Source: Cliona cf. orientalis (lineage: Eukaryota > Porifera > Demospongiae > Clionaida > Clionaidae). From it: a stretch of 64,000 nt of DNA. A program made the position numbers and the translations under genes. The notes under the pieces are model-generated. The model was not told the DNA's origin. It did not search any database and saw only the letters and a list, made by a program, of their open reading frames with translations. Shown here in pieces: positions 15,751 through 61,757 of this stretch. Position 1 is the stretch's first letter. The number at the start of each line of letters is the position of its first letter. The stretch spans positions 4,271,054-4,335,053 of the forward strand of contig OZ005694.1 in assembly GCA_963930775.1 (NCBI GenBank). Reading direction: 5' to 3'.

Positions 15751-16063
15751 TATGCTATGATCAATATTTGATGAGACATGTTTGACAGTATAAAGTAAAA
15801 TTGTAATCTAATTACTGTATAAAGTGAAGTCAAATACGTCTAATTAGACAAATTATACAAATTAGACAAATTTGACTTCATATAGGCCAATAGACAGTTA
15901 TTGTAAAATACGTTGCTATTTCATATAAAATGTATATTATACAATTTGACAGTCAAATATTGTCAAATTAAGTATATTCCCGTATAATAGCCAATACTGC
16001 ACCCTACTGGACTATTGAACCGAGACTCGGCTATAGTTGTGTTTAATAATAAATTATGCATCA

Positions 16064-19000
16064 ATGGATGATTATTATACTCAAGCCAGCGTAGAGCAGT
16101 ACAGACTGCTCGCTGCTCGTGAAACAGGATTGGAATTTGGTAGAGGCTCCTGCGCAGCAGTCGTTGAGGTAGACTACAAAGGTCTGCGCTGTGCTGGAAA
16201 GAAGATCCACCGTGTTCTCTATGAAGGACAAGTAGACAACTTAATTAATGAGGCGTTTCGAGGAAGAATGCAGGTTGCTGAGCCAACTTCGACACCCGCA
16301 CATAGTCCAGTTCCTGGGCATCTGCTTTCATAGTTGCCAAGTGTCCCGGTTTGGCCGGGACAGTCCCGGTTGTGTCCCGGTTTACCTGATTTTGCAGCAT
16401 TGTCCCGGAATCCAGCTCGATTGCACAAATGGAGGTGTGGCACAAGCATAAACTCAGTATATTATCGAATTTCAGTCCGTATATCTCGATGTTTAGTGGG
16501 CGTGACAGTACATAATCGCCCGAAAGTGGGTGTGGTCTCCCCAAAGTGGGCGTGGTCCGTAAAATTTCGCGCGCGCTTCACGCGCATTCATTATATTTTC
16601 TACTCTGTCCCGGTCTCTCTTCTTGTAAACTTGGCAACTATGTGCTTTGAAGTGGACACCAATGCACCAATTCTGGTGATGGACTTTCTGCCCACCACTC
16701 TCACCCAGTGCCTGGACCACTATGGTGTCATGCCAGAGGAGATCAACTGCTCCATCCTTCAAGATGTGGCCATTGGTCTGCGATACCTTCACGATCGACG
16801 TGATCCCATCATCCATCGCGACCTTTCCGCCAACAATGTGCTGTTGGTGGCAGATATGAGAGCCAAGATCTCTGATCTAGGCGTAGCTAAGATTGTGGAT
16901 ACAAATCCCAATAGAATATCAACCATGACTAAGACTCCTGTTACATGCCACCAGAGACAATGGTGCTTAAACCACGATACGGTATTAAGGTATGTATATT
17001 AATGTAATAAGACTATGTAAGTCAGTGTAGTAGTACACATGCATGCCTGTTGTGATTGTGATACATATGCATGTATTTTAATGTACCTTATTATAACTTG
17101 TAGGCTAAGAGACACTTGAATACTAGTTCTGTTTGGCTAGTGTACACTCGATCCCAGCATGCATCTTAATTAAGTGCCAAGTCAATGACATCATCAAATT
17201 TTTTCCATAATAATATATTATTAGCTATAGTATGTTTGATATCACAGTCATGGAATAATGTGGCTGATATACACGAGTTACTCACACACTCAGAGAAAAT
17301 GTAAATAGTATTATCTCCCTAGCTGTGCATGTGACAGTGCACATGCAAGCGTAGCCGAGGCTAATGCAAGTGCAGAAGCCACGAACTTTGAACTTATTAG
17401 TATCACTTTGTAGACCACACCCCTTGATGGAGGTCAACAGCAGCTGCTCATTGCAATGGCGACGTTCTCGCTCTGTCGAATCTACCACCAGGCTATGACA
17501 AAGAACAGACTTCATCTCCGAGGCTCAGTGGCCTGCTGAGCAGGCCTCTCGAAATGCGTGGCGCTTTGTGCAGTTCGTTCAAGAATGCATCTCTAGCTCA
17601 ATGGCTACTGTTGTTTGTGCATACGCCACTGCAATTCTGACCAATCGTGGGCCTTCTGAACTTGTAGAAGAGCGTATCTTTCGGCCCTCCAGGTTAGGAC
17701 GCAGACTATAATATAAGAAAAACGATCGTCTGAAAAATATTTTTGATTGTACATGTACCGGTATATTGTATAATCAGTTCCTATAGCTAGTTTAAGAGTT
17801 AGTTTGAACCACATTAGCTATTAGGCCACTCCAAGTCAATCATTAGTTTCTGGTCACACCAAGTACATGCAGACAGGCAGATGGTTAGGACTATGAGACT
17901 ATGACAGGAAGAGGAAGTACTTAAGTCTAGACCTACATGTATGTAGAGCACATACCGCGCACACATTGCGCAATCTATAGATCTGCTTTTGTGTGTATGG
18001 GGAAACAAATATTGAGTAGAAATGCTGCTTGATTGTATCAAGGGCTTGTAGACTCCATAACCCCTTGGTTGTATATAGGCTCCTGGTGATAGCAGCCAAA
18101 AAACCACTGACTCTCTCTCTCTGCACGAGATCTAGACTAGGTAGATATATCTTACGTTCTGATTGTTTGCATTCCAGTCTGTGGATAGCTAGCAGCCAAA
18201 TATTATTATGCCACTAGCATTATTGACGACCTTTACCAGCTCATAATATTTGTTATGCGCATGAGCAGAAGCACAAGGCCGTATGCATAATGTATTGAGT
18301 GGGCGCTGTCGATAGGCGTGGTTACGAAGGCTAACAAAAGGCACTATTTGTGACGCTCGTGGACCATGTCCCTCGATTCGAAGCACACTGAAGCTAGTTT
18401 TTCGTCAAATGCGACTGATTCATTGTGCTTACGAGTCGTTCAGGTACCTAGACCTCACGATATGGCGATATTTGTGCTTATAACAACAACAACAACAACA
18501 ACAATGACAACGACGACACAACCAATTACTTTACCCCTTGTGCATGCGCGCGGGGTAATTATCATCCGCCCGACCAACTGACCCTACTATATTTCGTGGT
18601 CATGTTAGTCCAAACAAACAATTTATTCTGTGTGGCCTAAAATCTTCTTGTGATTCGTCTTCAGTGTTTTGTAAATCCCATGCGTATGGCTTCAGCTGAT
18701 GGATATCTCTACGTAATTTCCTCTCCATCTATAGGTTGATATTTTCTCATATGGTGTGATGATGGTGCATGCATTGAGTGGACAATGGCCTTTCCCTGGA
18801 GAAGCTGTACGTATCAACCCCAGAAATCCAAACAACCCTAATGATGTTATTGGAGTGACAGAGTTTGATCGTCGTAAGGAATATATCGACCTGATTGGAT
18901 ATGAGCACCCTTTGATAAGTTTGATCCAAAGATGTCTTAGCAACAGCCCCTCCCACCGCCCCACCTCCTCAGAGGTCCACCAGAGAGTGAACGCAGTGGC

Positions 19001-20576
19001 AGCTGACCATCCTCCCTCCTTTGCCAATAGAGTGGATATGATGGACAGGATCAAAGTTCTTAGTGATGAAAAGGAAAGAGTGCAAATTGAAAAAGAAGCT
19101 ATAAGGGTAGAAAAGGATACAGCTGTCCGAGCTATTGAAAGGCTCTCAGCTGAAGCTGAGGAATTACAGTCATCCACGGACAGACATCACAAATACCACT
19201 TGATCGAGAAGGAGAGTCTCCATGCACAATTATCTCATGTCAAAGCTGAGAATGAGCATCTGGTCAGAGTTATTGGTATCAAAGATGAAGAAGTGGAAAC
19301 GGTGAAAAGTAATAATCAGTCCAATGTGCAAGTGTTGGATAGAAAACATAGGACAGAAAGTGAAATGTGTGAACAAAAATATGTGGTTGAAATACAATCA
19401 TTGAAACAACAAATACATATAATTGAGAAAAAGCACGCAGTACAGCTTGCTACACTGGAGGATGAACAAAGGATTAAAAACGAACACCATCAGGCCGAAT
19501 TAGAAGCAAAGACAAGGGAGCTGGCAGTAAGAGCTGACTATCTTGCTACCAAGTCCAATGCTTTAGAAACTCTGGAGCGACAGCTTGAATTTGCATTGGA
19601 TCTCTCACAGAATCACAACATTCCCAATTTGTTTACCCCTAGAGCAAACCTAGTGTTCAGTGAATGTGCCAACTTGCCTACCACGCGTGGTCAGGGTACT
19701 GCAGTAGTCAGTGGTCATATCGTTTATGTTGGATACGGTGGGACAAAGTTCGTGTACAAGTATAGCATTACTATAGATAAGTGGGATAGCCTTCCCGTTG
19801 CACTTGTTGAGCATTTTGCACTTGATCACTTAAACGGTAAAATTTTGACAATTGGAGGAAAAATGCAATCCAAGGGGGTGATATCAGACATTTATGAATT
19901 CGATGAAGCCTCCCAGCAGTGGATTGGATCAACCTCCATACCACCTATACCAACAGCACGTGAACTTGTAACAGTTGTCTCCTGGTCATCACCACCCGCT
20001 CTGATCGTCTGTGGAGGAAGAGGTGAAAGTGGTGAGCCAATGTCAGTTGTGGAGATATATACCACTGCTCAGTGGAGCACTGCAACTCCTCTCCCTACCC
20101 CAAGCAGCTTAATGTCGCAAGCAATTTACGGTGATACTATATTCTTCATGGGTGGCAAAGAAGAAAGTGCTCTTGGTAGTTGTAGGAAAACAGTCTTTTA
20201 TGTCTCTGTGGCTCAGCTCCTAGCTTCATGTATATCAGAACTACCCTCGTCCCAGCCTAGGCTAGATAAGCTACGAGAGCTATGGCACTTTCTTCCTGAT
20301 GTTCCCCACTATCGATGCTCTGCTGCTTTTCTTAATGGTTGCCTACTAGCAATTGGTGGGCAGAAAGAAGCACTAATAGGTGGGCCAGTCTACTCCTCTG
20401 TGTATGCCTACTGCCCTCATTCATCGTCTTGGCTCAAGGTTGGGGATCTGCCTCAACCTCGCTCATATACTACAGCTGTCACTCTTTCAACACGAGAACT
20501 ATTGGTGATAGGAGGACTTTCAACCAACTTTCTTACAACCAGTACCATATACAAATGCTTGCTCTCTTTTTTGTAA
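16064..20576 (+). CDS. Protein kinase-coiled-coil-Kelch fusion (first exon disrupted)
   Basis: Modelled as exon 1 (16064-16989), a 1745-bp intron (donor GTATGT at 16990, acceptor TATAG at 18734) and exon 2 (18735-20576). Exon 1 gives a kinase domain: glycine loop GRGSCAAVVEV, likely lysine in CAGKKIH, RRFEEECRLLSQLRHPHIV, catalytic loop HRDLSANNVLL, and DLG in place of DFG. The junction restores GIK-VDIFSYGV. Exon 2 is one open frame: end of kinase lobe, coiled coil (about 19030-19620), then Kelch-type repeats to the stop. Problems in exon 1: a one-base frameshift near 16240, a 314-bp transposon (16329-16642), and a lost piece plus frameshift near 16940 where YMPPE resumes in another frame. 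Either a recent pseudogene or assembly indels; the intact second exon argues for recent decay. HRDLSxNN suggests the tyrosine-kinase-like group. A function in signalling is inferred from family only. Confidence 0.7.
16329..16642. mobile_element. 314-bp transposon inserted in the kinase exon, 6-bp target duplication
   Basis: Ends are CATAGTTGCCAAG and CTTGGCAACTATG, perfect 13-bp inverted repeats. The 6-bp TGCTTT occurs immediately on both sides (16323-16328 and 16643-16648). Dropping the element and one TGCTTT joins the codons for GIC and F-EVDTNAP without a gap, so the boundaries are exact. The interior holds GTCCCGG repeats and AAAGTGGGCGTGG plus CGCGCGC sequence shared with the element at 3449-3790. 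Confidence 0.9.
17945..18556 (+). mobile_element. GAGCACATACC element, intron copy
   Basis: It begins AGAGCACATACCGCGCACAC and ends near TGCATGCGCGCGGGGTAAT. It shares blocks such as CGATAGGCGTGG, GCACACTGAAGC and TTTGTGCT followed by (CAA)n with copies at 39604-40195, 44455-45040 (inverted) and 61277-61757. It lies inside the kinase intron. No coding capacity. Confidence 0.7.
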
Positions 20577-21252: not shown

Positions 21253-24200
21253 ATGGGAAGCAACACTCCTGAGTACCGTGCGATGATTCAGTCGACCTCT
21301 GATGTCACCAATGCTGTGAAGAACGACATGGGTCCTCTGGGTGATGAGCTACTAATGAAGGGTCTCATATCTGCTAGCAACCTAGAGTCTGCCACTAACC
21401 CAATGATTGATGCGAGTCAGCGTGCCTCTCAGCTGGTGTCTTTGATTAGAACAAAGATTCAACTAAGTCCTGGCAACTTCCATAAATTCGTTGATGCTCT
21501 TCTGACAAGGGCTTCTGACCATCGTGAGATCCTGGAGATCCTAGACCACAAGTATAAGGCACTAGGTATATGTACATGAGTAGCATTTTGTGTGTGTGTG
21601 GGGGGGGGGGGGTCGGGGGGGCGGGGGAGTTGGTGATACAGTACAGGTGACTACTACCACCAGTGAATTGGGCTGAGTTAAAATATGCTGGGTGATCAAG
21701 CTATGAATTGGGGGCAGTTTAGGTCAAGGTTGTTCCAGATGCTTGATGGGCGTGGTTAAATGCACAAGCTTCTTATGCCACCGCGCCCCATTTTATTGGT
21801 AATGGTCGTCAAATATGCATGCTTCATTCAACTGCTGGGAGTATTTTTTATAGCAAATAAGCAAATTAACTAACCACCAGCCACATTGAAAATGAGAAGC
21901 CAGTAGATGAGAAACTTTAAGTAGCCTAACAGTGAAGTATGTGTAGTCAGGTACAAAACTTGATGGGACAAAATCTTGACCACAATCATGGGGACTAGAT
22001 AGGTGCCTGTGTAGTCCCTGCCTGTTTACCACTCTCTTTTTTCAGGGGAAGTGGGTGGGAGGGGGGGGGCAGGGGTTGAAGTGGATCATTTAAGCAGATT
22101 AAAAATCTATCCTTGATTGCTTGACTGGGAAATAGACTAACTCTGTGCCCATACTTTTAAAATTATATCAAGTTGTAAAACCACGAGCACATCCCTAGTG
22201 AGCAACATGTATACATGTACATGTAATTGAGTGCTGTGTGTCTTCCTTTGCCTAACTGATTCACTCCTTCCCAGGAGGAGTAAAGGAGACTGGTATCAGT
22301 GCTGCACTAGCCACTCTAGCTGAGCAAGACCACGCAGCTGCACAACAAGGTATACAGCCGTACAAGATACATTAATTTTTCGTCTACTTTTACATTGTAG
22401 GTATCATCTGTAGACTGTAGCTGCCCATGTTCAGATCTCCCTAGGCTGGTGTATTAAATGGCAGTACCGTAGTGTCCAGGATAACCACCCATGGGCACTC
22501 TACCATAACTCCTCAAATATTTACTACCTGGGTGCTTTACCTATGCCAAACCACACACAGAATTTTTAGTGGCTGGTATCAATGTACAATCATGATTGCT
22601 ATAGCAACTCGATCTTGATCGCCATTAGTTAGCATGTTTTAGAACGAGGCAATTTTCGTTAAGTATAAAAGCTACTTACATGCATACTAGGTTTGTGTCT
22701 CTACTGCCACAAATCAGCTGTTGGTGGCGAATGAGATGATGTTTGATGCATGATCGAGCTGTCAACTACGCATGTAGCTATGTTCAATGGAACATGCCCA
22801 TCGATGCAAGTGCTCTTTGGCGTACACACATTGCTTGAGCACTTGACATAATTATATGGCCAGGAGTGAGCACTTGCCCGGGGCACTAGCACTATGGTAT
22901 ACGTGTATGTATGGAGCTGGAATACATCACAGGTTAAGACAGCTGCTGGATCAAAAAGCAGCTAGCATACATGTACACATGTAACTGGCTAACATAATAT
23001 TATTTTGTTCCCATGATTGTACAATCATAACTTGGACATGTACATATAGTGTACAGTTGTTTATTCAAGAATTACCAGTGTAAACAATAATGCTTGCACA
23101 GTGGCTCCCACAGTGACGCGGTCACCATCTTCAGCACCGGCTATACAATCTTCATCACAACAGCCTCAACCAGAATCTAGATCATCATCGTCATCGTCAC
23201 TGTCAGCTCAACAAGCCACTACTGGTGGAATAGTACCAAGTTCAGGTAAGAAAAACATTTAATTATTTCTCACTTACAATAATATCGAACTGTTGTGTAC
23301 TTATTATCCATAATTCTGTCTCTGTTTGCATATTCTTTGTAGGCCGTGTACACTTAAATGATGGGATGTCAGACGAGCTGTTTGTGGAGTGGCTCAGAGA
23401 TAGCGGCATGACTCAGAGTGGAGACAGAGACAAAATAATTGGTATAAACAAGAGTAGAATAGTTAACTATAATAGTGATTCTAGTAGTTGTACTGGTCGA
23501 CCTGTACTAAGGTATAGATTTATTGGCAAAGCTGCTTTCTGTCATGCTTTCCTCCCAAATAAACCATTGTTTACCACTTATTGTCGTGCCCACTCGAGTT
23601 CGTACTTTATATCTGTTGTGGTGGGGCTCCAGGACTGTGGCCAATTGTTTGAGGGCTAACTGTATGTGACTGTATGATAATATTATATTTTTGGGGAGAG
23701 GGGGGGGGGATAAAATGGAGGGGGAGCTTTCCTTGAAAATGAGTATACCACTACATATACTAAATTCAGGGTGCAGCTCCTGTTTAAAAACATACATTAT
23801 GAATGTGGTACACGTACAATGTAACAGTGTTCTCCCCAAGATAAATTCAAGGCATGTCAAGGTACGACAGTAGAGCATGCTTTAGGTGGAGGCAAGAGTA
23901 TACTTTTGGTGGAGGCTATGGCCACATTAAGGCTTTTGGAATCTCCCTATTTGTATATCAAAGAAAATTCTGTACTGAAGGCTTGTTGGGCCGACATACC
24001 TTATGTATGCTGAGGAGAACATTGTAAATGTGAACATAAGAAAACTCACAATAATTGATATAATATTATACAAGCAATTAAATCCGTCATTTGATGTTAC
24101 TGTTTGCATAGATATTCGTGTCCTGCTTTTTCTCCTGGCCAGGGAAGGGCACAGGGGAGGGTTATATTTATTTGCCTTAGCCAGTGTTATCCCCAGGAAA

Positions 24201-25960
24201 AGAATTAAGGCATGATAGTAGGGCATAGCTTGGGTGGAGACTGGCCACATCAAAGCATATGGATTAGCACTATTCCCACATCAAAGGGAATTCTGAACTG
24301 AAGGCTTGTTGGGCCGACATGCCTTGGGCGTACTGAAATTAGGTGGGCACCAAAGCATTTCAGTATGCTCATCCCTATTATGAAAAATTTTCACCCTGAT
24401 ATTTGATGATGGTGGTTTTGGGCGTGTGCTGGGGTGGGTGGGGTGGGGGAAGTGTGGGGAGAATAAGGAGAGGGGTGAACCTTTCCTTCAAAATGAGTGC
24501 CACTGATTCAGAAGTATCAGTGGCTATAGCGCACAGTAATCATTGGATTCTAACTGAAGCTGCCTCTCTTGACCACAGGAGCAGGCATCAATGCTCAGAG
24601 CCTTCCATATTTAGAGGAGATGGATGTCAAGGAAGTCATGGGACAACTGTCTCTCGGAGGGAGGGGTATTTTACGAAAGCTATGGAGACAATACAAAATC
24701 AGTGTAAGTACAATGTCATGTACTGTAGGTGTACTACAATTAGGGGTAGATAAATTATGCTAATATAGTGCTATTCTCAAATGCTCAAAGAATCCCTAAT
24801 AATGCTCAAGAAGTGTACCTGTAATTCCCACTACATTGCCCATTATGCTCAAGTATGAATCGACTATAATGTTAATAAAAACCGATAATAATATGAGACA
24901 TGAGGAGACTTGGTTACACTATCATGGAGTGCAGCCATTTCAATTTTACATGTGTTTAGATTTAAAAGTGGGGAGCAGCGTTGTGGCAAAGGTCAATTAA
25001 TTGCTTGCAATTGTGTGCCCTAAAATTCTCAAAATTATGCCAGTTGATGCCTATAATGCTAGCATAATTCTCAAATGCTTACACATACCTATTATGCTCA
25101 AAATTATGCCAGCATAATTTGCCTACCCCTAACTGCAATGTATATGACGTTATTACAATTATGTCATGTATATTATATGCAAGTTAGCATTGTACCCTTG
25201 GGATTTGGCTATAATATTATGTAGCATGGTGTTCAGTTATGTAAATTACTATTTACAGGATGAAAATGAAGGTTCGCTGACTAGCCACTTGGATACAGAA
25301 CTAGGTAAGAAAGTCTACTTGTGGAATGAGAAATTTGGCATAATAATATTGACATTTACCACAATGTCATAGCAATTTTGGTGAGTATTAATGTGAAGAA
25401 AATTTAATGGGTCTCAGTTGGTACTGAGCACGTGCAGCATGACATTTGTAATATAATACCTGGAAATGGAATTTATAGATTTGGTGATCTGCAGTGTGCA
25501 TGAGTGAATGTGAAGTTTTTAATTTGATAATCTTTATACCCAATTTTGCCATCCCACATCAATTGAAATCCTCACCCAAATTCCTGCTGTACGTATTGAA
25601 AGAGTTACAATGTAATGCTGAATATTCTCTCTCTCTCTCTCTCTCTCTGAATCTCTCTCCACCACACCCCACTAAGATAAGAAGGTGCACTACAAGATAA
25701 CCCGTTTCCTCAAGGACGTTCCTGCTAATGATTTGAGGAAACTTGGTGGTGCTTTGGGCCTCTCTCGTTCCAAGATCCTCCAAAAGCCAGATGATGAACT
25801 TTGTGAAAGTATAGTTTCATCGTGGTTACGTATGGAAGATGAAGTTCTAACTGTTGGCAAACCAACTCTGAGAGTTCTAGCCTTTCACCTTAAAGATATA
25901 GGGCAGAGTGGTCTGGCTCATGAGATAGTTAGTACCAATGGGAAATGTATACTGAATTAA
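21253..25960 (+). CDS. CARD-SAM-Death adaptor A (seven exons)
   Basis: Exons: 21253-21565, 22275-22349, 23102-23245, 23343-23441, 24579-24703, 25259-25304, 25677-25960. Every junction has GT donor and AG acceptor and the frame holds throughout, giving 361 residues. Residues 1-104 form a CARD-like helical domain (LVSLIRTKIQLSPGNFHKFV, ending EILEILDHKY). Residues 105-177 are an Ala/Gln- then Ser/Pro-rich linker. Residues about 187-249 fit a SAM domain (FVEWLRDSGM, LPYLEEMDVKEVM, GGRGILRKL). Residues about 270-355 are a Death domain (VPANDLRKLGGALGL, SIVSSWLRM, LAFHLKDIGQSGLA). The ATG at 21253 is preferred over 21223 because it matches the start of paralogue B (MxNxPEFR). Such adaptors join receptor or kinase complexes through like-with-like domain contacts in the cytoplasm; the exact pathway is unknown. 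The CARD and SAM calls are by motif. Confidence 0.82.
23831..24345. repeat. Two degenerate direct copies in an intron
   Basis: Blocks 23831-24010 and 24188-24345 share ACTGAAGGCTTGTTGGGCCG and CAAGGCATG / TAAGGCATG contexts. They lie in intron 4 of adaptor A and show no coding signal. Confidence 0.5.
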
Positions 25961-26160
25961 AAGAATTATTGATTGTTATCATGATGATAATTGTTACTAG
26001 CCTCGTTCCCAGGCTCTCCCTCGCCCGTCTGTTTATTTATACGCGCGATTTTATGAACAATAATTTCGCATAAACAAAAATTAATAATTATTGCGGTCAC
26101 AGTTATGTGCGTGCTATGTTGGCCACACCCATTTATACAGTACCTTGAAGAGGGAAAGCC

Positions 26161-29100
26161 ATGGCAAATGGCAACAGTCCCGAGTTCCGCACCATCATCC
26201 AGTGCACCCCTGAGTTGACGACTGCTTTGAAGAATGATCTGGTCTCCCTCAGTGGTGAGCTGCTAGCGGCTGGCCTTATCGCGGACGATAACGCGGCTGC
26301 TCTCAACAACCAGTTTGTCGGCGCTGCGCATCGAGTGGCTGAACTGGTGGGATTTGTGAGAAACAGAGTCATGCTGGACACTAACAACTACCTCTCCTTC
26401 ATCAAAGTGCTTCAGTTGAGGCAGGACGATCATAAGAACATACTGGAGATCCTAGGCAAAAAGTACAGGGAACTAGGTTAGCCATGATCATAATAATATT
26501 AAATTTTGTATTGCAGTCATATTGCCATGAAGGGAATTACCCAGGGATTTACCCCTGAAACTTGTAAGCATTACGTCATCATGATAATATTGTGTGTAAA
26601 CGTACGTATACCTGCAAACATAATTTTCATGATTTTTAATCCCATCCTCAGTGTCCTCATTCTTTCTAGCAATCTATGTTTCTCCACATACACTAGTCTA
26701 TCAAGCTAGACCCTTTTTCGCCCGACGACCTTTACCTACTCCCTCCACACGCGAAAAAGGGTCTAGCAAAGGTCAGTGTTGGAATGCAATTCATTAGGTG
26801 AAGCCATACGAGTGCGCGCTTGGCTCAAAAGCAAGAGAACAGCAGCAGATGGCCCAGTCTGATGTTATTATGTTTGAAAGTAAGCTCTAAAAATACTAAA
26901 AGCATAGTAGGCCTAGTCTAGTGCCCGTTTTTTGCCAACTGCTACTCTACACCCACGCATAAATTGCTTGCATGAATTTCAAAAGCTGAATCTGATTGGC
27001 CAGACAAAATTTGATTAAACCTGACCTTTGCTAGACCCTTTTTCGCGTGTGGAGAGAGTAGGTAAAGGTCGTCGGGCGAAAAAGGTTCTAGCTTGATAGA
27101 CTACACATACACAGGCTGATGGGTTGTTTTGATTTATGTACTGGAACGGAACGGTACGGAATATTCCGGAAGCGGTAGTGCTTCAGGAGTACTCGATTGA
27201 CTCTTGCGGACCAATGCCTCCTCCTTTTTCAGAGTATAGGAAGGCCTGAGTATATTAAAAATGAACTATAATATTATATAGTTTTCTAGCACCACATGCA
27301 TTCCACAATCGGGAGTGCACATAGTCTCGCTAGCCATATATACCCTTCTTTTTTTGCCTGGGGGAGGGGGGGCGGGGTGGAGGGGTGACACATGAGACTA
27401 GACTGTAATCTGGATGCCGGCCCTTCATAGGCACCCAGACTAATTAGATCTAGTCAGCAGCTGAATACTGGTAGCATAAAATTAATGGTACACAATTGCT
27501 TGCTATATTATTATAGTACATACATAGTGACTTTCAACCTGTCACTGCAGAAGTGATATCTCACCTTAGATCCTACTTGTAACAAATACTGTAATCTGAT
27601 TGGTTAAACTGAAGTATCTATCCTTCATAGAAAATCATGTAAGCTCTGTAGAAAATCATGTAAAGCTCTGTAGAAAATCATGTAAATTTTCTTGCCTATG
27701 GTTAGGGTTGTTGCTAGGCAGCAGTTTATGTATCAAGCTTTTGGGCATTGTTGCTAGGATCTAAACAGGTTAGACACTGTTTAGTTGGTTTCTACGTGAT
27801 TTAGAAGACCTCGGGGCTCAGTAGAACCCTCGCTTCGCTCGGGATTCTACACAGAGCCCTTCAGTCTTCTAAATCATGTAGAAACCTCCTAAACAGTGTC
27901 TAACTATTATTTAGATACTTTAGTCTAGGCATGTATCACAGTGGTTTGTTAATTGAAACACGCTGCTGCGTCAGTAATAGATAAACTATGGTTGATATAC
28001 CATTCATATATATACCACCCTGAGCTCGAGGGCATAGCCCGAGAGCGAAGGTGGTATATGAACAGTGTATCCTGGGCAAACATAGTTTATCTGTTTAATA
28101 TCTTGACCATGATTGGTCAGTGTAATCACCAGACTGTTTACTTTTTCGTATTTGAGTTGGAGTAGTAGGTAGCTAGATTCTATCATAATGACAATCTGTA
28201 CAATAGTCTATCAAGCTGGAACCCTCCTAGTGATTGTATTATGTGTGGGAGCTACTGGCTATAACAAGTGAAAAGCTAGTAGCTACAACACAAATTAACT
28301 TGGTATGCCAGTGCAACTGTGTTATTGGACTATTGTCAGGGGTAGCTAGGGAGTTATGATGCCTGAGGGCTGGGGTATATGGGAGTTATATCATGGCTGT
28401 TACCTAGGATACAAGGCTAAGTCTAAGGCTAAGGGGGGGGTGGGGGGGGGGGGGAGTGACACATGAGACTAGACTATAGTCTGGACGCCAGCCCTTCATA
28501 TATAGGCACCCAGACTAATTAGATCTAGTCAGTAGCTGAATACTGGTAGCATAAAATTAATGGTACACAATTGCGTGCAATATTATCATAGTGACTTTCG
28601 ACCTGTCACTGCAGAAATGATCTCACCATAGATACTTTAGACTAGGCATGAATCACAGTGGCTTGTTGAAACACGTGGCTGCATCATGGAGCATTAGAGC
28701 ACTGATACGTGTGCATCTGTATGGCTCCGGTAATTACACAATATTCCGGATTTGTTCCATTCTGGTAAATAAACACTACTATTATGAGAAACAAACTAGA
28801 GCTCTCTAGGGCATATAGCCTGTGCGCTTCTGTAGCCGCTGTAGCGTAGTATCCCAGTTTTCGCCAATAGCTATTCACCTCTTCATGTTTACAGTATGCA
28901 CAGATATCTACAAATGTATACCTAGAACTCAATTTTCTTGGCACTGACGACGAGAGATGCCAATTGCTTTACCCCTTGCATATGCATGGGGGGTAATAAT
29001 ATAGATGTACATGTGTTGGATCTTGATTATGTTATCCATGTACAGGCGGTGAGGGAATTTGTCATATTATGACAATCAGTCACAGTCAGTCAGAGCCCAC

Positions 29101-31912
29101 CTTGCCAAATACTGCTGAGAGTGTTGGGATCAATAAGAGCAGATCAGCATCCACTCCAAGTAAGGAATTGACTTTAGGAATTGATATTGGGCCAGTACAG
29201 TTAATAAGAATACACCCCTGTTGAGGAATAATTTTCCAGTTCCCCTGAAGACAAGTAATCAGATCAATTTTCCCCAGAAGACTTAATTAAAATGGAGGCA
29301 GTGACCCCCAAGACATCGTTAAAATGCACCATTTACCCCCCAGAACATCATTAAAATAGCCTCAACACCCCCCCCCCCCCCAAGACTTCATCAAATCAAG
29401 CTACCCCCTCAGGATACAATTATCGTTCCTCAACAGGGGTGTATCTTTATTAACTGGAATAGCCCCTTATGTCTTTACCTGTCACATAACGTTTAGATCC
29501 CCATACAGACCTTATAGACAAACCCTGCCCCAGCTATAGACCCTGGAGACTAACCTTGCTCACCATATATTACATTATAGCTGGTACCCAGTCCCTGACC
29601 CCCTGAATCTCTACTGTAGTTGCATGGGATCCAGATATTTCTGAAATACATGTATAATGGCCAGAGGTCCAAATATTTTGAAATAATATATGGACTAGAG
29701 GGGTCCATATTAATTTTATCAAATGGTTTCAAGGCTGAAAAATTCACTTCTAACCTCCATGATCACATCAATAATTATCCTGTTGCTCTTTACTACAAAT
29801 GTCTAGTGGGTCAAATAGTGTGTTCTGATCATACAGAATGCCCTTACATTTCTGTGGGGGTGGGTATATTCTCTATCTGTGAGGGTGGTGGATATTCTCT
29901 GGTTCTCCTAAATCACTGGTGCCTTGCAGGTGGAGCTGAAGTATGCGGATTTTCAACATCTTTATCGGATGATGAATTTTCAGCCCTTCTACGAAAGGAA
30001 GGTCTCAAGGAGCCTGACTGCAAGAAACTCTCTGGTATGTACATGTATGTGCCAATGGTTTATGTATGTGTACTTAATTAACCCTCGGTGCATGCACGAG
30101 GGTTACGATAGTCGTTCTGTGTGTATCGATGTGTCTATTTCCACGATAACTGCTACGTACATGTATATACCTCGTTTGCAAGTCCAAAGTGCAGTTTTAT
30201 AAGATTCCTTACGGCGTTCCAAACACATGTATTGTGTAGATTTTGCTAAAAATGCTTTGTTCTCCAGCTTTGGCATCATTTGTTGATGCTAAGCTTCTTG
30301 GCTTTCGACATTCAACCTTCTGTTTATACGTAAAGTCATGCACGAGTGGTGCATATACGGTATGTCTGAACAAAGGACACTTTGAGAATGGGCCTCTTGT
30401 CCTTTGCTCGGAGGTTGTCCCTATCTCGGAGGTTCTTGATTTTTCAAACCATTTTGATTGTATTAGTTAGTAAATGCACTGAAATGCATGATAAGAGCAG
30501 TAGAGATGATAATCAAGTGGTTGATATGTTCTGTTTTCAGTATCAACATAGCACAGGCTGAATTTTTTGTTTCTGAAGTACTGGCTACTCCAAAATCGTT
30601 ATCTGGATTCAAGGCTAATATTATTATCGCGCATGCAGCATAATATTATCGCGACCGCCTAGATTGCGGCAAAGGTGGACGTGGCGTCGTTAATTTAAGG
30701 GCATGGTTTCCGGGTGTCTGCTATTTAGAGGCAGTTTTGCATTGAAAAGTCACGTTGGGAGCTTGGATCTTGTCCGCTGTCCGGAATCGAGAAGCGTCCA
30801 CTTCTCGGAGGTTACTATAACTATGCTAAATTCAATCGGTAACACGGCACTTGTCCGCTATAGAGAGGTTGTCCGCTTCTCGGAGGGTCCGTTATCGGAG
30901 GCTCGACTGTATGTACATGTAGCAGCTAGCTTGATAACAGATAGCCTCATCCCCAGGGGCACTGCTTCTTGATGAGATCTAGATTGACATGCAATCGCTT
31001 CATTTCAAGAAGACGAGAATGTAGGTGTAGTGATAGATCTTACGTGTATAACTTGACTGACTCATCACTGGTCACAGTAGGCTAATCAACTTAAGTTATT
31101 AGTCTTCAAGCTAGACCCCTTTTGGCCCGACGACCTTTACCTACTCTCTTGTATAATCTCATCCATCTAATCCTTCACCACTTTTGTTTTGTCACTGTGG
31201 CTGGTTATATTTATTTATTTATTTTTCTTCACTATCTATAACTTTTTACAGAGAATTGTATTGGAGCTCAGGTATTTCCACTCCTCACTGATGATCACAT
31301 AAAACAACTTGAACTCACTCTTGGTGGTAGTATTGCTGTTAAAAATCTTCTTGCTAAGATTAAGGTTTGAGCCTTCAATCTTATGTTATTTTGGTATATT
31401 ATACATTATAATGTCAACATTGTTATGCAGGAGTCCAACTCTGTAGCTGGTGCATCTGGTACTAATGGTCATCAAACTAATAATCCCAACACTGCTTGTG
31501 TTAGCACAACCCCGCAATGTAGCAGTGATGGTAAGTGCTAAGTTTTACTAGTAAAATAGTATATTGGTTCAGTAATTTGAAGTCATGTTGCTGCATTGAA
31601 TACTGTATAGGTCCCAAGAGTCAATATCTGAGCATAGATGACCTGGGCGAAGTGTATGATGCAATGCAAGATGCCCGTTCTAAGTGGTACCACATTGGGC
31701 TGGAGCTGAGGATTAGCCCTAACGACCTAGATGCCATCGTGAAACAGTGTAATAATGACCTTACAAACGCTCTAACAGAAACACTGTCGATTTACCTGAG
31801 AAGATTGGACCCCAAACCGACATGGTCGCAGCTGGCAGAAGCTCTAGGCGCTAGATCTGTTGGCTTTGAATACCTAGTAGAGAGAGTACGCCACCAGGGT
31901 ACTCGCACATAA
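26161..31912 (+). CDS. CARD-SAM-Death adaptor B (six exons), paralogue of A
   Basis: Exons: 26161-26476, 29046-29159, 29930-30034, 31252-31364, 31431-31530, 31611-31912. All have GT/AG borders and a continuous frame of 349 residues. Residues 1-105 are CARD-like (MANGNSPEFRTIIQ, ILEILGKKYREL). Residues about 155-215 fit a SAM domain split over two exons (LSDDEFSALLRKEGL, then PLLTDDHIKQLELTLGG). Residues about 258-345 are a Death domain (IDDLGEVYDAM, WYHIGLELRISPNDLDAI, WSQLAEALGARSVGFEYL). Exon phases match adaptor A (1,1,1,0,1), but no counterpart of A's 75-bp second exon was found in the 2.6-kb first intron, which is full of transposons. The gene starts 200 bp after A ends. Role inferred as an innate-immune or cell-death adaptor. 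Confidence 0.82.
26694..27103. mobile_element. 410-bp element with TAGTCTATC ends and 9-bp target duplication
   Basis: Ends TAGTCTATCAAGCTAGA... are inverted at 27023-27103, with arms of about 80 bp. The 9-bp CACATACAC flanks it at 26685-26693 and 27104-27112. A single-arm fragment lies at 31103-31142 and a shorter one at 28203-28225. It sits in the first intron of adaptor B. No coding. Confidence 0.85.
27572..27910 (+). mobile_element. 339-bp insertion with empty site in the neighbouring duplicate
   Basis: TTAGAT occurs on both sides (27566-27571 and 27911-27916), and the uninterrupted duplicate at 28625-28645 has a single ATAGAT. The interior contains a fold-back (TTTCTACGTGATTTAGAAGAC and its inverse). 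An inverted relative lies at 48890-49205. The ends lack clear inverted repeats, so the class is unknown. Confidence 0.75.
27977..28093. repeat. Short inverted-repeat element
   Basis: GATAAACTATG at the left is inverted at the right (CATAGTTTATC), with an inner pair TATACCACC / GGTGGTATA around TCGAGGGCATAGCCCGAG. It fits a small MITE in the intron of adaptor B. Confidence 0.6.
29198..29456. mobile_element. 259-bp inverted-repeat element in intron of adaptor B
   Basis: The left end CAGTTAATAAGAATACACCC and the following CTGTTGAGGAA are inverted at 29424-29456 with one or two differences. The interior is C-rich with CCCCCAAGAC-type repeats. No coding. Confidence 0.7.
30240..30915. repeat. Repeat-derived block with CTCGGAGGTT motifs
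   Basis: Repeated phrases TTGTCCGCT, CTTCTCGGAGG and TCGGAGGCTCGACTGTA are spread over this stretch. They look like the decayed body of an interspersed element. It lies in the third intron of adaptor B and does not affect its exons. Confidence 0.45.
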
Positions 31913-37974: not shown

Positions 37975-38355
37975 TTAACATCCATACTTGGCATTGTTGG
38001 TAACAAAATTAATGCCAAGTGTTTGGACCGTTGGACACCTCAGGACAGTTCCTAAGGCATCAACATTCCAAAGAAATGCGTCTGGAAAATTGTAGTTGTA
38101 GGTCATGACTCCATTAAGTATCGATAGGATGAGTAGCTACGTCCCCCACATTCATCAAGGTCTGTGGTAGCCCACAGTTTGCACGTTCGACATTAGTGTC
38201 TAAACCAATACCAGAGTGGATGTGGTATACATCCCCAGTGGGAGCAGCATGCCCTTCACAGGAGTCAGTCAGGTGTCCTTCAGATTCCACAGCATCCATC
38301 TACATTGATGTCAATTCAGCATTTGGAAATAAACCCACAGGGGGATTTGCATCTA
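37975..38355 (-). pseudogene. YHYH-protein pseudogene
   Basis: The minus strand encodes MDAVESEGHLTDSCEGHAAP, HIHSGIGLDTNVERANCGLP and, after a deletion of about 30 codons and a frameshift, GVMTYNYNFPDAF and FVTNNAKYGC-stop. These match the intact gene at 41151-42032 closely. The signature YHYH is changed to YNYN, and an extra codon breaks GDYHIH to GDVYHIH. Flanking sequence (37745-37870) reappears inverted at 39040-39200, so the copy arose with local rearrangement. Confidence 0.85.
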
Positions 38356-40894: not shown

Positions 40895-41150
40895 CAATGG
40901 CCCCCCTGGCCCCCTGGTTCCTACTCCACTGCCCTGCTAGAAATGTGCTAACTACCGAAGTCCTATGTGTGCAGTTAAACAGTATAAAGGCAGTAGGGGC
41001 AAATGCGATTTCTGAGTTAATTCGATTTTGATCAGTCTATGCATAACAGTTGGTACTGCTACATCAGATTCACAATGCTTACCTCCATCAATGTGAGTGA
41101 CATAGTAGTTAACTGACTATAATACAGTGATTGCTATATATGTTTGTATA

Positions 41151-42032
41151 ATGCAGATACTCCTCGGATTATGCATCAGTTTGTCCGGAATCTGCTACAT
41201 TAAGGCTCACTGTGCCATGGACATTGCTGAAGAGTCCCAAGCAAGAACTCAAACGTGCAGTGCAAAGGGCAGAATCCAATGCCCTACTTCTCCACCCTAC
41301 TATGATGTTGTGATCTCAAGAAATGTTACGTATCGTCACGTGCAAACCACTGGATGCCCACCGTATGAAAACCCTGGCTGGACAAATCGAGCGGAGGCCT
41401 GTGTGGTCGAATTAACTTACGAGATCCCAATAAATCCAAAAGTGGCTAATGTTCCTATTCCAGTTGGAGAGATTCTAGAAGTTTTTGAAGGAATTACCTA
41501 CCTCAAGGAAGATCCTGCCCCTGTTCTAGGAGCACTTGGAGTTCTAAGAAACGGAGTCAGGATATTTGGTGTAGGATCCCCCTGTGGGTTTAGTTCCAAA
41601 TGTCCAATTGATGGTGGACCATCAATGTATGTGGATGCTGTAGAGTCCGAAGGACACACGGTTGACTCTTGCGGAGGGCATGCTGCTCCCACTGGGGATT
41701 ACCATATCCACTCTGGTATTGGTTTAGACACTAATGTCGAACGTGCAAACTGTGGGCTACCACAAGACACGCCTGGACGACATTCTAAGCTCTTGGGATG
41801 GATGTTTGATGGATATGGAATATACGGACAACTTTCACTTGGTGGTCAGCTACCAACAGATCTTGATGAATGTGGGGGACATACTCATCTACTCAATGGA
41901 GTCATGACCTACCACTACCATTTACCAGATGCATTTCCTTGGACTGTTGGATGCCTTAGGGGTTGTCCTGAGGTGTCCAACAGTCAAATGAGTTTTGCAT
42001 TTGTTACCAACAATGCCGAATATGGATGTTAA
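41151..42032 (+). CDS. Secreted YHYH-domain protein
   Basis: Single open frame of 293 residues. The start at 41151 is the only ATG that gives a signal peptide (MQILLGLCISLSGICYIKAH); the frame extends upstream without another ATG, so an upstream exon joined at ATGCAG is possible. Features in order: Cys-rich start after the signal, NxT glycosylation sequon (NVT), FxGITYLKED, RIFGVGSPCG, a histidine-rich centre (GGHAAPTGDYHIHSGIG), GWMFDGYGIYG, DLDECGGHTH, and the signature YHYH at residues 254-257 followed by DAFPWTVGCLRGC. These are hallmarks of the YHYH family, found in bacteria, algae and marine invertebrates; the biochemical role is not established. The many His and Cys residues make metal binding plausible (inference). 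AATAAA at 42300 is a possible polyadenylation signal. Confidence 0.85.
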   Translation: MQILLGLCISLSGICYIKAHCAMDIAEESQARTQTCSAKGRIQCPTSPPYYDVVISRNVTYRHVQTTGCPPYENPGWTNRAEACVVELTYEIPINPKVANVPIPVGEILEVFEGITYLKEDPAPVLGALGVLRNGVRIFGVGSPCGFSSKCPIDGGPSMYVDAVESEGHTVDSCGGHAAPTGDYHIHSGIGLDTNVERANCGLPQDTPGRHSKLLGWMFDGYGIYGQLSLGGQLPTDLDECGGHTHLLNGVMTYHYHLPDAFPWTVGCLRGCPEVSNSQMSFAFVTNNAEYGC

Positions 42033-50598: not shown

Positions 50599-52661
50599 TT
50601 AGTGACGTTTCTGTCCAAAGAAATAGCCAAAATTGATACTCCCTGAGCCTAATGCTGGCTGTTGTTGGATAGAAAAACGATCGGTTGGCTGAAGAACATA
50701 CGTATAAGCATGGCTGACCCTTCTAGCGCGTGGTCCAGGATGTTGATCACAAGGACAAGCATATACTTGCTGCTTAGGCTTACGATGCCGACGCTGAGGA
50801 CGGTAACGTTGTGGGGCACTGGGTTGCTGTGAAGAACCTGGTTGCTGACCCTCAGGGCACCTGGTATAGTTCCTCTGAAATGCTTGAACAGTAAACCAGG
50901 CCCATTCGTTTAGTCCAAAGCGAAGATGTTCGTTCCATTCTGGATTTCGTGTGTCATTCAGCGGTTTTGTGCATTTTTGAGTGATGCCTCCATTGTTATC
51001 ATAAGCATTTATCATAATGTAGGGATTCACACCACGTGTAGCACCATTTTCATTGACCAAGTTTACAGCATCAGTTATGTTGATATTAAGACGTGCACGA
51101 TTAAACTGACAGCGAGGTCCTCCGTAACCTTCTATGCAAGAGCATGTGCCATCAGCTTGACATGTTCCTCCATTGAGACAACGGCAAACCTCTGAGAGGG
51201 ACATGGAGAATGTCAATCTCATGCTACAGTCGATATTGTTACAGTGTTGAAGGTTCTGAGTTCCAGGATTGACAGAGAAAGGTTGTGGCGGTGTGAGGAG
51301 ATCGTCTGGGTTTGGATTCGTAGGTGTAACTGTATCATGGTCCCAGATGCTGACATTAATGTATTGCCAATTGTTACTGCTCGTTCCAAAGTCAATCTTG
51401 GTGTTCCAAACAGGGTTACCAGTATCATTGAAATAGAAGGTTCTTTTTGTGACAACAAGACCTCCATCATCGTAGGCTGTCACTAATACGTATGGATCAT
51501 CTCTAGGAGGCAAATTTTCAGCTTTTTGTATGTCAACACTGAGGCTTCCTGGTACACCACTCCCTGGGCAGTTATAAAGTCGATTAAGCTGTTTTATGTC
51601 AAAATGGCTAGCAGTCGGCACACGTCCAAGATTTGGGCTTCCCTGTTGCTCGTACGCAGCTTCATTGATGATGTTCAGTGTGTTTCCTGTGTCATCTTTA
51701 TTAAACGAGTCCAGGCGATAATGCATGACAGATGCATAATCGTATGATTCTCCCTGAGAGTCTACCTCGAATGTATTACGCTTCAAGAAGTTGTGCTCTC
51801 GACCAGCCTCAACATTGCTCAGCAAAATCTGAAGGTAGTTGTCTCTGTCAGGCCGGCTCTGCTCATGCCATAGCCCCAGGGCATGGCCTGTCTCGTGGAT
51901 GATAGTGTGTTGTGTATTGCACCTTGGTCCAATCTTGATGATCTGCTCTCCTCCGTCAAAACCCACATGACTGCTGCAACCATCGCTTGATAGAGATCTG
52001 TATTTGATGTAGTTGGGTTGATTTGTGCGTGGTATAAATCTCACACAGGTCAATTGCTCTAGTGTGTGTATTCCTTGTTGAATAGCGGCACGAAAGACGG
52101 CATTGATTGATGCATCAAATGTATAGTAGACTGTGTTGTCAGGCCATATCTGATTCTTGTCTCGTCGCACAGCTCGTGCTGTTCGTGCCTGTGTGTGTGT
52201 GAAATATAATGAGTATACATGTATGTACCTGTTGATTACTGCATGGTGGTTGCCAAATAAAAATTAATGATTATGCAATCCAAATAAGTAATTATCTCTG
52301 CAACATGGTTATAATGTTACTATAGTGATATGAGTTATCTAGTGGTACAGTGAGTGTTCATAGCTACAGGAGAGGATCAGCATGCTCTAATTTTCTATTA
52401 CACGTAGTAATAATAATAATTATTAGAGGTTTTAGTGGGGTAATTACTTACATTCCCAGATTGTCCACTGTGAGGCACACCATAATACTTCTCGAACTCC
52501 TCTGGAGTGATAACTATGTCTCCTTCGAATAAGTTTGGGTCATACATTGCTGCATCATCCGCTATTGTGTCTGTCAGTGGTACTGCAGCTATGAGAATAG
52601 CGCTCTGCATTGTCCACAGTACTATGAGAGTCAGAGGCAGGATATTTCTTGTAGGACTCAT
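50599..52661 (-). CDS. Astacin metalloprotease with C2-like and EGF modules (two exons)
   Basis: Exon 1 is 52661-52452 and exon 2 is 52188-50599, joined in phase 0 with GT/AG borders: 599 residues. Residues 1-28 are a signal peptide (NILPLTLIVLWTMQSAILIA). A prodomain ends in RAVRR before DKNQIWP, a likely furin-type cleavage. The astacin domain (about 80-277) has the zinc motif HETGHALGLWHEQ (168-180), RPDRDNY, and Met-turn SVMHY (223-227). After it come a C2-like module (about 284-395; DDPYVLVTAYD, NPVWNTKIDF), an EGF domain (about 405-431; CRCLNGGTC, CSCIEGYGGPRC), a second C2-like module (about 435-510; NPYIMINAYD, NPEWNEHLRFGL) and a basic Gln/Pro-rich tail. It should be a secreted zinc endopeptidase; C2-like pairs with astacin are unusual. 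All catalytic residues are present. Confidence 0.88.
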
Positions 52662-59165: not shown

Positions 59166-61276
59166 AAACTACACAGTATACGTAGAGACTAAACTGTATA
59201 GCTACTACATTATAGTCATGATACTCAAATTTAACAACAACACATAATATTATATAGCTATGAGAAATATGGAATTTCCATGAAAGCTATTGTAGAGCTT
59301 AGTACCTATATGATCAGTTATGTGTTGCAGCTTGGTGCACTGGGTAGTTTGGTGCATGATATAATATGCAATTAATGAAGTTCACGTGTGCATGCTGTGG
59401 ACATATATCCCTCTGGATTGATCCATAGATGAGGACTGGATCAGATCGCACAGTTATTTCAATACCTATATACAACTGCCATAGTCTTAGCTGCAAGCGG
59501 GACTCGGGAGCATACTGATCATAGGCCCTGTGCTCATAGCCATGTTCCTGTCAAGTGGAGTAAGAATTTTAACTGGGCTTTTAGACTCCCAAGGGAGAAT
59601 AGGGCAGTAAACGTATCACGGAAAAAAATTCAAAATTAATAGTCTAGGCTGAAAATAGTATCAATTTCTACACCTGAGCTAGTATAACGTAACTAAAATT
59701 AGTAGCATTCTATTTTCAGATTGTATACTACACGTAGAATTGCATTGGCATTCTAAACATGCCATCTCCCTTGTATCTTTAACTATCCATTAGATAAATT
59801 TAATTTGCAATGGATATCACTAAAACTCTAAATAGCTATATATACGATATCCAAGTGAGAACATAAAAGCACTAGCTGTTTTACGATGCAGGGTGTATTA
59901 CGTTCTCTCAACATTGGTTGAAATGGCTCAACAGCATCAGAGTGAGAAGATTGGCTTCAAAAGAATCACTCTTTGTAAAGATGAAACCCTCGGTATTGGA
60001 GCTTATGGAATTGTATACCAGGCAAAGTGTGATGACCTCCTCTGTGCAGCTAAAATTATCCATCCAACTCTATTCAATCCAACCACTCTACGTCAATCTG
60101 CAACTCATAGTGAGCACAGCCTACCTTTTAAGAGGTTTCAACTGGAATGTGAGTTCTTGAGCACTGTACGACATCCTAACATTGTCCAATACCTTGGAGT
60201 GCACCAAGATTCTGATACTGGACTACCATGCAGTTCTGTTAATGGAGCTGATGGACAATAGCCTAACCGTATTTCTGGAAAACTCGACACAACCGATTCC
60301 TCACAACATCCAAGTGAATATCTGTCACGACATTGCTCTTGCTCTCTCATTTCTCCACTCTAATCGCATTATCCACAGAGATCTTTCTAGTAACAACGTG
60401 TTGCTGATAAATTATGTGAAAGCCAAAGTGACCGACTTTGGAATGGCGAGGCTGAGTGATCAAATGCCACTTGCAACTCAACATACCTTCACTATGTGTC
60501 CAGAGGCTGTCAAAGCTAATTCAGCATACACGGAGAAGATTGACTGCTTCTCGTTTGGAGTCATCACCATCCAGATTATAACACAACAGTTTCCCAACCC
60601 TGCGAATCGCCGAAAGGAAATCCAAGTTTATCAACCAGGATTACCTCCGACTGTCGAAGTGCCTGTATCGGAAATTGAGCGACGACAAAACCATATTGAT
60701 GAAATTGATCCACATCACCCCCTTCTTCCAGTTGCTCTTGACTGCCTAAATGATGCAGATTTTGAACGTCCAACAGCTCACCATCACTGTGAAAGAATAG
60801 CAGGCTTGAAGCAAGATCCACGATACAGTGAGAGTGTGAGGCTGGTTGAAGCATGCAAGGGGTTCAGCAGAGCAGAGTAGAAGCGATGAGGAATTACAGT
60901 CACTGAGACATGAACATGGTCAGCAAGTTCAAAGGCTTCAACTGATTATTCAGTCACAAATAAATCAATTGACAAAATGCAATCAAACACTGAGAGAAAA
61001 AGATGATATCATAGCCGAACTGACACAAAGAAATCAGCAATTGGAAAGACAGAAAGGTATATTGCTTTTGATGATCGAGAGAGAGAGCTGAGACTAAGGG
61101 CTAGAGAGATTGATGGACTGGAGAAACAATTGGGACGCATCAACCAGCAGTTAAAAGAGAGTGAACTGGCTAATGCTCAGTTTCAGAGTCGAATTGCTGA
61201 ATTAGAGCAACTGATAAAGGAGCAGAGAGCCAGAATCAAGTTGAAATGGAGGGAGGGAGAGAAAGCACCATGTAAA

Positions 61277-61757
61277 ACTAGAGCTCTGTAGAGCACATAC
61301 CCCGCGCGCTCTGTAGCCACTATAGCGTCGTATTGCAACACTATGAGGCATCGCGCTCTAATATCTATGGAGGCATATAATTATGTAGCTGTTTCATGAC
61401 GTGACGACCCTTTCCAACAAAGTGCTTGAGCATGCGCAGTCGCATCCGCATACTTAAAAGAGTGGGTGTGGTCGATAAAACACAGGCATGCTGAACAGAA
61501 AATGCACTATTTGTAGCACTAGTAAGCCTTTTGAAACGCGTACAAACCAGTTTTTCACCGATATCCACCGATTGGTTGTGCTTTCAGTACCCCTTGCGCA
61601 TGCGCGCGGGGTAATGAGCATCCACCGATTGGTTGTGCTTTCAGCACGCATAGATACCTAGAACGCGAGATCTGGCGATTTTCGTGCCGACAACGACGAC
61701 GACGACAGACATACAAACCGATTGCTTTACCCCTTGCGCATACGCGCGGGGTAATGA
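61277..61757 (+). mobile_element. GAGCACATACC element inserted in the kinase-Kelch pseudogene
   Basis: Starts AGAGCTCTGTAGAGCACATA and ends GCATACGCGCGGGGTAATG, with an internal copy of the end block (CCCCTTGCGCATGCGCGCGG at 61591-61610). It separates the coiled-coil frame from the Kelch frame. The (ACG)n stretch at 61692-61704 is typical of this family. Confidence 0.8.

Follow-up and report, generated by a model that had tools for sequence, protein, structure and literature searches.

CARD-SAM-Death proteins of two neighbouring demosponge genes and their putative role as adaptors

Among the described adaptors of caspase pathways, CRADD/RAIDD of the PIDDosome carries a CARD at its N-terminus and a Death domain at its C-terminus, with no SAM domain that we know of; ASC/PYCARD, which is PYD-CARD, bridges a sensor domain to the CARD of a caspase; and FADD is DED-Death. 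The CARD is a docking domain of caspases and NLRs, and in the Apaf-1/caspase-9 and CED-4/CED-3 pairs it is found on the ATPase or on the caspase. Here we describe two neighbouring genes, A and B, of the demosponge Cliona cf. orientalis, located in a stretch of 64,000 nucleotides of chromosome 6 (4271054-4335053), referred to below as the window, and whose predicted products combine a CARD, a SAM and a Death domain. By domain content, A and B are none of CRADD, ASC and FADD. As putative small adaptors with the CARD first and the Death domain last they resemble CRADD, but they carry an intron-split SAM in between; the resemblance to ASC is one of concept, as their CARD is N-terminal and followed by SAM and Death; and they share with FADD, which is the top PDB match of the gene B Death profile (2e-7), the C-terminal Death domain, but not the DED. 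Unlike in the Apaf-1 and CED-4 systems, their CARD belongs to a SAM-Death protein.

The literature is cited here from excerpts of the papers concerned. For sponges, FADD and CASP8 from Amphimedon have been tested as a basal death-inducing signalling complex, in a study that also comments on the scarcity of SAM polymers among innate immune signalling systems (PMC13012725). ASC is named in human, mouse and fish, whereas the excerpt lists only NLR and caspase-1 for Porifera, and a direct NLR-caspase contact is proposed for sponges (PMC11508797). A survey based on Pfam and SMART reports that 7 of 11 sponge genomes lack CARD-NLRs, and that the most expanded class is that of NLRs with neither a CARD nor a Death head (PMC12909245). 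CARD, Death and CRADD-like genes are among those altered by microbial cues in sponges (PMC6208332). Invertebrate immunity has other cases, comparable to A and B, in which death-fold, SAM and effector domains are newly combined, namely, the TIR-SAM, Death-NACHT and Death-caspase hybrids of amphioxus (PMC2575513) and an RLR with an N-terminal SAM in one species (PMC8998645), but neither excerpt includes a CARD-SAM-Death or SAM-caspase combination. Our literature search, which left most subscription papers outside, found no description of CARD-SAM, SAM-caspase, Death-SAM or sponge Roco-Death proteins. The novelty of CARD-SAM-Death is tempered by the wide shuffling of Death-like domains reported in a sponge (PMC8195603).

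Gene models and domain content

We rebuilt both genes from the window sequence, on the plus strand. Gene A (21253-25960) has 7 exons and 1086 nucleotides including the stop, encoding 361 amino acids; gene B (26161-31912) has 6 exons and 1050 nucleotides including the stop, encoding 349 amino acids. All 11 introns have GT-AG borders and the rebuilt reading frames contain no in-frame stop, so that both genes assemble completely with consistent splice sites, as first proposed from the sequence (hereafter, the original prediction). The junction phases are 1,1,1,1,0,1 in gene A and 1,1,1,0,1 in gene B, gene A having one phase-1 linker intron and exon more. Also as anticipated, the five junctions common to both genes, taken in order, have identical phases (1, 1, 1, 0, 1). 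In a four-gene alignment, two of these five coincide exactly, at column 106, following the CARD, and at column 212, within the SAM, and the other three are offset by 2 to 16 columns in a gappy linker region. The phase agreement is more than chance, because a paralog on chromosome 10, described below, retains all six gene B exons. The exons, in window positions, are as follows:

Gene A exon 1, 21253..21565, plus strand: CARD, residues 1-105; 41% identity to gene B exon 1
Gene A exon 2, 22275..22349, plus strand: linker; GT-AG, phase 1 in and out
Gene A exon 3, 23102..23245, plus strand: Ser-rich linker, the extra one relative to gene B
Gene A exon 4, 23343..23441, plus strand: SAM N-terminal half; local hidden Markov model (HMM) 2.9e-18, the HMM having been built with its own sequence included
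Gene A exon 5, 24579..24703, plus strand: SAM C-terminal half; local HMM 1.7e-21, likewise built with its own sequence included
Gene A exon 6, 25259..25304, plus strand: short linker, phase 0 in and 1 out
Gene A exon 7, 25677..25960, plus strand: putative divergent Death domain, 94 amino acids, and stop
Gene B exon 1, 26161..26476, plus strand: CARD, residues 1-106, by profile and predicted fold
Gene B exon 2, 29046..29159, plus strand: linker, with the QSEPT and RSASTPS stretches retained in the chromosome 10 paralog
Gene B exon 3, 29930..30034, plus strand: SAM N-terminal half
Gene B exon 4, 31252..31364, plus strand: SAM C-terminal half
Gene B exon 5, 31431..31530, plus strand: linker, phase 0 in and 1 out
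Gene B exon 6, 31611..31912, plus strand: Death domain, 100 amino acids, and stop

Each gene has its own start and stop, with 200 bases between them, which speaks against a single fused gene. The two proteins are 32.5% identical, with a synonymous divergence (dS) of 2.5, and their last exons come from two different Death families. Thus, the genes are tandem in the sense of being close neighbours on one strand, but not recent tandem duplicates. The introns of gene B hold repeats of their own: in intron 1, an inverted repeat of 83 nucleotides (26694-26776 and 27021-27103, 98% complementary), which looks like a small transposon, and a direct repeat of 91 nucleotides (96%) whose copies are 1,075 bases apart; in intron 3, a relative of the inverted repeat of 44 nucleotides (31106-31149).

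None of the six domains of A and B passed the Pfam gathering cut-offs, and the domains were identified through the profiles of their families. Pfam CARD (PF00619) gave no match in whole A or B at E-values up to 10, nor for gene B exon 1 alone at up to 1. Of 25 members of the CARD family, 13 match Pfam CARD at E-values of 1 or less, and a single frame, L042, exceeds its cut-off (24.9 against 23.9 bits). Moreover, the profile of this CARD family matches the CARD of APAF1 with an E-value of 6e-4, and the AlphaFold model of gene B exon 1, compared with chains ranked by Foldseek, is a CARD-like death fold with a kinked first helix, this being the outcome for the N-terminal third of the structure check that the original prediction had proposed. 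Both proteins are thereby predicted to start with an Apaf-1-like CARD. A PYD was not matched in the Pfam scan of whole A and B, and the N-terminal domain was assigned to CARD. We considered and rejected an ASC-type inflammasome adaptor, as a CARD occupies the place of the N-terminal PYD, and an adaptor of CRADD type, in which nothing lies between CARD and Death. A DUF4195 match in the whole-protein Pfam scan of gene A was spurious, and botulinum light-chain rows from PDB, covering part of gene B exon 1 with E-values of 0.11-1.7, were judged to be chance.

In A and B, the SAM is divided by one intron into an N-half and a C-half exon. Pfam SAM (PF00536/PF07647) gave no match for four joined SAM sequences at E-values up to 5. 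A profile of nine relatives was compared, using hhalign, with one built from 20 SAM_2 domains that Pfam recognises in this genome, giving 93.8% (P 1.7e-7), and five cross-comparisons (CARD-Death, CARD-SAM and Death-SAM, plus this SAM against Death and against CARD) gave 0.2-2.2%. Against PDB, 11 of 22 rows were SAM domains, including SAMHD1, ANKS3 and Shank, with Bicaudal-C (BICC1) the best of them (0.0085), behind two rows of BURRH repeat proteins. The BURRH rows that top these searches were set aside, as they are sums of many sub-threshold repeats in which no single stretch passes. On the strength of these comparisons we assign the middle domain of A and B to SAM; the SAM domains of Bicaudal-C, ANKS3 and Shank polymerise.

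The gene B Death domain scores 22.5 bits against Pfam Death (PF00531) on its own and 19.8 bits in the whole protein (E-value of 9e-4), just as the gene A domain, with 12.6 bits, below the cut-off of 22.6. All 15 members of the gene B Death family match Pfam Death, as do 10 of 20 in the gene A family, and the profiles of the two families match each other with 97.6%. Besides FADD, the gene B profile finds PIDD (3.5e-4) and, weakly, CRADD (0.41) in PDB, whereas there is no Death chain among the 3 rows found with the gene A profile; the structure model of gene A exon 7 is of low confidence. With gene B as a single sequence, the PDB search gave weak matches to the SAM of ANKS6 (0.64) and to FADD (1.1). 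The last exon of both genes is accordingly predicted to encode a divergent Death domain. All three families on one protein, as in the original prediction, were therefore recovered by profile, and we hold the CARD-SAM-Death architecture of A and B to be very probably correct.

The CARD-SAM chassis and its candidate partners in the genome

The CARD-SAM-Death module reaches beyond genes A and B. The chromosome 10 paralog contains the six gene B exons in the same order, with phases 1,1,1,0,1 and all five junctions in the same alignment columns as gene B. Its identities with gene B are 72% for the CARD, 62% over 29 residues of linker, 59% for each SAM half and 58% for Death, or 61.6% over 344 aligned residues. 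With a dS of 0.69 and a nonsynonymous divergence (dN) of 0.27, that is, a dN/dS of about 0.4, the pair is under purifying selection. In the otherwise loose linker, QSEPT and RSASTPSG are kept between gene B (29046-29159) and the paralog (L029:3729-3857), possibly as phosphorylation or docking sites.

The same chassis is used by a caspase. A gene on chromosome 8 consists of a CARD, two linkers, SAM-N, SAM-C, a short exon and a caspase domain (9.4e-53), with LSHGT and QACRG stretches that we take to be the catalytic ones. Its phases (1,1,1,1,0,1) are all six of gene A, from which it differs in sequence (27.6% overall identity). The SAM-internal intron occupies one alignment column, in phase 1, in A, B, the chromosome 10 paralog and the chromosome 8 gene. 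Two CARD-SAM genes on chromosome 3 (phases 1,1,1) end right after the SAM; the frame upstream of one of these (L034) has a COR-A match below cut-off (1.6e-5) and a stop before the next frame. A locus on chromosome 14, which was not assembled, has CARD and SAM exons with a further exon in between. By eye this exon (L030:3601-4020) is CARD-like, and it has no Pfam CARD match.

Using the gene B CARD as query, we found at least 146 CARD-like places in the genome, and Death-like places number at least 150. A genome-wide Pfam CARD search at an E-value of 0.001 found 49 places, 3 of which are among the 146. As only these 3 are recognised by Pfam and some B-type CARDs lie just upstream of NACHT, some sponge NLRs taken to be headless may carry an unrecognised CARD. 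Eleven of the Pfam-recognised CARD matches form a cluster on chromosome 11 (9.07-9.13 Mb), most in frames of more than 250 amino acids and separate from the B-type CARDs, although one of the latter (C11:9072122) lies inside it. At locus L036 (C10:7508000-7517900) there are two CARD exons, the first with two Death-like exons behind it and the second with one, and no SAM exon by local HMMs, which suggests tandem CARD-Death genes.

The gene B SAM gave four matches in the genome, to itself and the chromosome 10 paralog only. A wider search with three other SAMs joined as query, at E-values up to 10, yielded 113 rows, 111 of which were assigned to halves according to their query range. A C-half lies downstream within 1.5 kb on the same strand for 49 of 53 N-halves, and in the wrong order or strand for 1; chromosome 3 carries 33 of these 49 pairs. 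Of the 146 CARD places, 14 are followed within 7 kb by a SAM N-half on their own strand, two of them by one common SAM, and none has an N-half upstream or on the opposite strand. Gene A is outside these 14, because the wider query missed its N-half.

Candidate sensors were sought around the same domains. A NACHT match lies within 13 kb of the CARD downstream on the same strand in 17 of the 146 places, upstream in 5 and on the other strand in 1; within 5 kb the counts are 8, 0 and 0. Since 103 of 490 NACHT candidates were scored, these are lower bounds. At L037 and L044 the CARD exon is upstream of frames with NACHT matches of 1.2e-25 and 1.1e-22. Chromosome 19 has a weak CARD (2.2e-4) and a NACHT in frames of equal length (1581 amino acids), 2.3 kb apart on one strand, and chromosome 5 has a Death domain (3.2e-13) and a NACHT, likewise in open frames of equal length (659 amino acids). 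A Death-like piece near a NACHT frame at L014 (42 bits to the gene B Death) has no Pfam match and was discarded. Six B-type Death loci were inspected: L020 and L022 combine COR-A-like (3.2e-5 and 6.6e-6) and Death (4.8e-4 and 7e-4) matches, all below cut-off, in a single frame, and L024 contains a COR-A-like frame. On chromosome 3, the Roc-like frame (3.4e-4) of L071 is followed by a Death-like frame (0.016) and then by SAM halves; thus, the upstream frame is COR-A-like (L034) or Roc-like (L071) in both chromosome 3 SAM loci that were checked.

The candidate effectors are the CARD-SAM-caspase of chromosome 8, a SAM-caspase of chromosome 2 (L069, with a broken CARD-like stretch upstream) and a caspase gene of chromosome 18 with weaker SAM halves (L070; C18:2865000-2872600). 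By eye, the latter has three Death-like repeats upstream, followed by the SAM-like halves; given its weak score, it was excluded from the SAM alignment. In a tree of 25 CARDs, those of A, B, the chromosome 10 and 14 loci, L031 and L032 group weakly (81/31).

A putative adaptor pathway and its rivals

On balance, we lean to the view that A and B are host genes for putative small adaptors, whose three domains would each dock homotypically, in a sensor-to-caspase pathway of cell death and immunity; the assignment of specific sensor and caspase partners is held with less confidence. The best reading of the sequence data is that both would act in the manner of ASC, CRADD or FADD, on a CARD-SAM chassis, connecting NACHT and Roc-COR-like sensors to CARD-SAM-caspases. 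In such a pathway, sensors with a Death domain (Roc-COR-like or NACHT) or a CARD (NACHT) would oligomerise once activated, and would nucleate A or B through Death in the case of a Roc-COR-like or Death-NACHT sensor, and through the CARD in the case of a CARD-NACHT sensor. The adaptor CARD would then gather CARD-SAM-caspases, aided by the SAM, which would provide a second contact and may polymerise, and the gathered caspases would become active by proximity. We infer every one of these binding steps. Given that adaptor and caspase have a CARD-SAM chassis in common, the last exon being Death in the one and caspase in the other, they could co-assemble via two interfaces simultaneously, and the two Death families could allow A and B to listen to different sensors.

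The original prediction was that the proteins could bridge CARD sensors, SAM polymers and Death-domain effectors. A bridging role agrees with the occurrence of the CARD family before NACHT exons and at the head of a caspase gene, of the SAM family in caspase and Roc-COR-like genes, and of the gene B Death family at the end of Roc-COR-like frames. Its direction, however, had to be revised: judging by these genomic partners, Death is likelier to face the sensors, and CARD-SAM the caspases. The module, for which the literature searched gave no description, extends beyond A and B. More tentatively, and as something we think possible yet rather doubtful, demosponges would have a caspase-activating immune pathway with SAM as a standing third docking interface, in which one CARD-SAM exon chassis, its last exon exchanged between Death and caspase, would be common to CARD-SAM-Death adaptors, to CARD-SAM-caspases and to the NACHT and Roc-COR sensors alike. 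If true, such a pathway would amount to a sponge version of the inflammasome, with SAM in place of the vertebrate PYD, and would stand as an exception to what has been published on the scarcity of SAM polymers. For the route from sponge NLRs to caspases, A and B are candidate adaptors and the chromosome 8 gene a candidate caspase, together with the candidate sensors named above.

Several results weigh against the adaptor pathway. In the CARD tree, the caspase CARD is found beside NACHT-linked CARDs of chromosome 6 and away from the adaptors (support 85/87, not starred), which would fit a direct contact between sensor and caspase where no adaptor is needed; and the labels adaptor, NACHT and SAM-other cluster no more than they do in shuffles of these 25 CARDs. 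No domain of A or B reaches its Pfam cut-off, and the wider SAM family surfaced only with other members as query, at E-values as high as 10. Since the gene B SAM finds only itself and the chromosome 10 paralog, and only a minority of the 49 pairs was read, the SAM may serve another purpose. Leucine-rich repeats could not be established after the two NACHT frames scanned for them, L044 giving LRR_6 at 0.018 and L037 nothing better than an E-value of 1, and the CARD-NACHT pairing is suggestive only, as the clusters on chromosomes 6 and 14 hold many of both. Finally, a common domain family does not demonstrate binding between two proteins.

These points leave room for other explanations. CARD-only proteins such as ICEBERG act as decoys or dominant negatives, and A and B, as caspase-like CARD-SAM proteins devoid of the protease, could similarly weaken the pathway by occupying its sensors or caspases. 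Their exon order and phases are those of the CARD-SAM-caspase gene with the caspase exon missing, and genes ending right after the SAM do exist on chromosome 3. We nonetheless regard a decoy function as unlikely: it would make the Death domain needless, yet this is retained in B and the chromosome 10 paralog, 58% identical in genes with a dN/dS of about 0.4. Ordinary lineage-specific domain shuffling, with death-fold domains freely recombined in sponges, CARD-SAM-Death as one of many combinations and no dedicated pathway, is about as improbable in our judgement. In its favour, the genome has 49 SAM exon pairs besides at least 146 CARD-like and at least 150 Death-like places, and for Amphimedon the excerpt consulted gives 357 TRADD-N proteins, up to half of them with unique architectures and most types with Death-like domains (PMC8195603). 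Against it, one CARD-SAM-caspase gene agrees in order and phases with three CARD-SAM-Death genes, and purifying selection acts between B and the chromosome 10 paralog.

The Roc-COR-like frames open a further alternative, in which A and B are scaffolds unrelated to caspases, whose SAM and Death domains connect Roc-COR-like GTPases to other pathways. The single-frame COR-A-like and Death combinations at L020 and L022, the COR-A-like frame at L024, and the concentration of SAM pairs on chromosome 3 (33 of 49), where the frame upstream of the SAM is COR-A-like at one of the two loci checked (L034) and Roc-like at the other (L071), are consistent with it. The chassis is also used by a caspase, however, and the CARD is otherwise known for docking caspases and NLRs, and we consider a scaffold of this kind the least likely of the three alternatives, and very improbable.

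Other features of the window

Two genes of kinase-Kelch type flank the region of the adaptor candidates A and B. The one at 16037-20576 has a Kelch match of 2.8e-14 and a partial kinase domain below cut-off (8.5e-6), and the one at 59836-62224 was judged to be of this type by eye, from its frames. Between them, a frame at 41109-42029 contains a stretch that we take to be YHYH-like, and a near-identical peptide is encoded by a fragment on the opposite strand, about 3 kb away (38114-38299). On the minus strand, a frame of 554 amino acids at 50602-52263 contains HETGHALGLWHE, presumably an astacin-type zinc site motif, together with C2- and EGF-like stretches recognised by eye.
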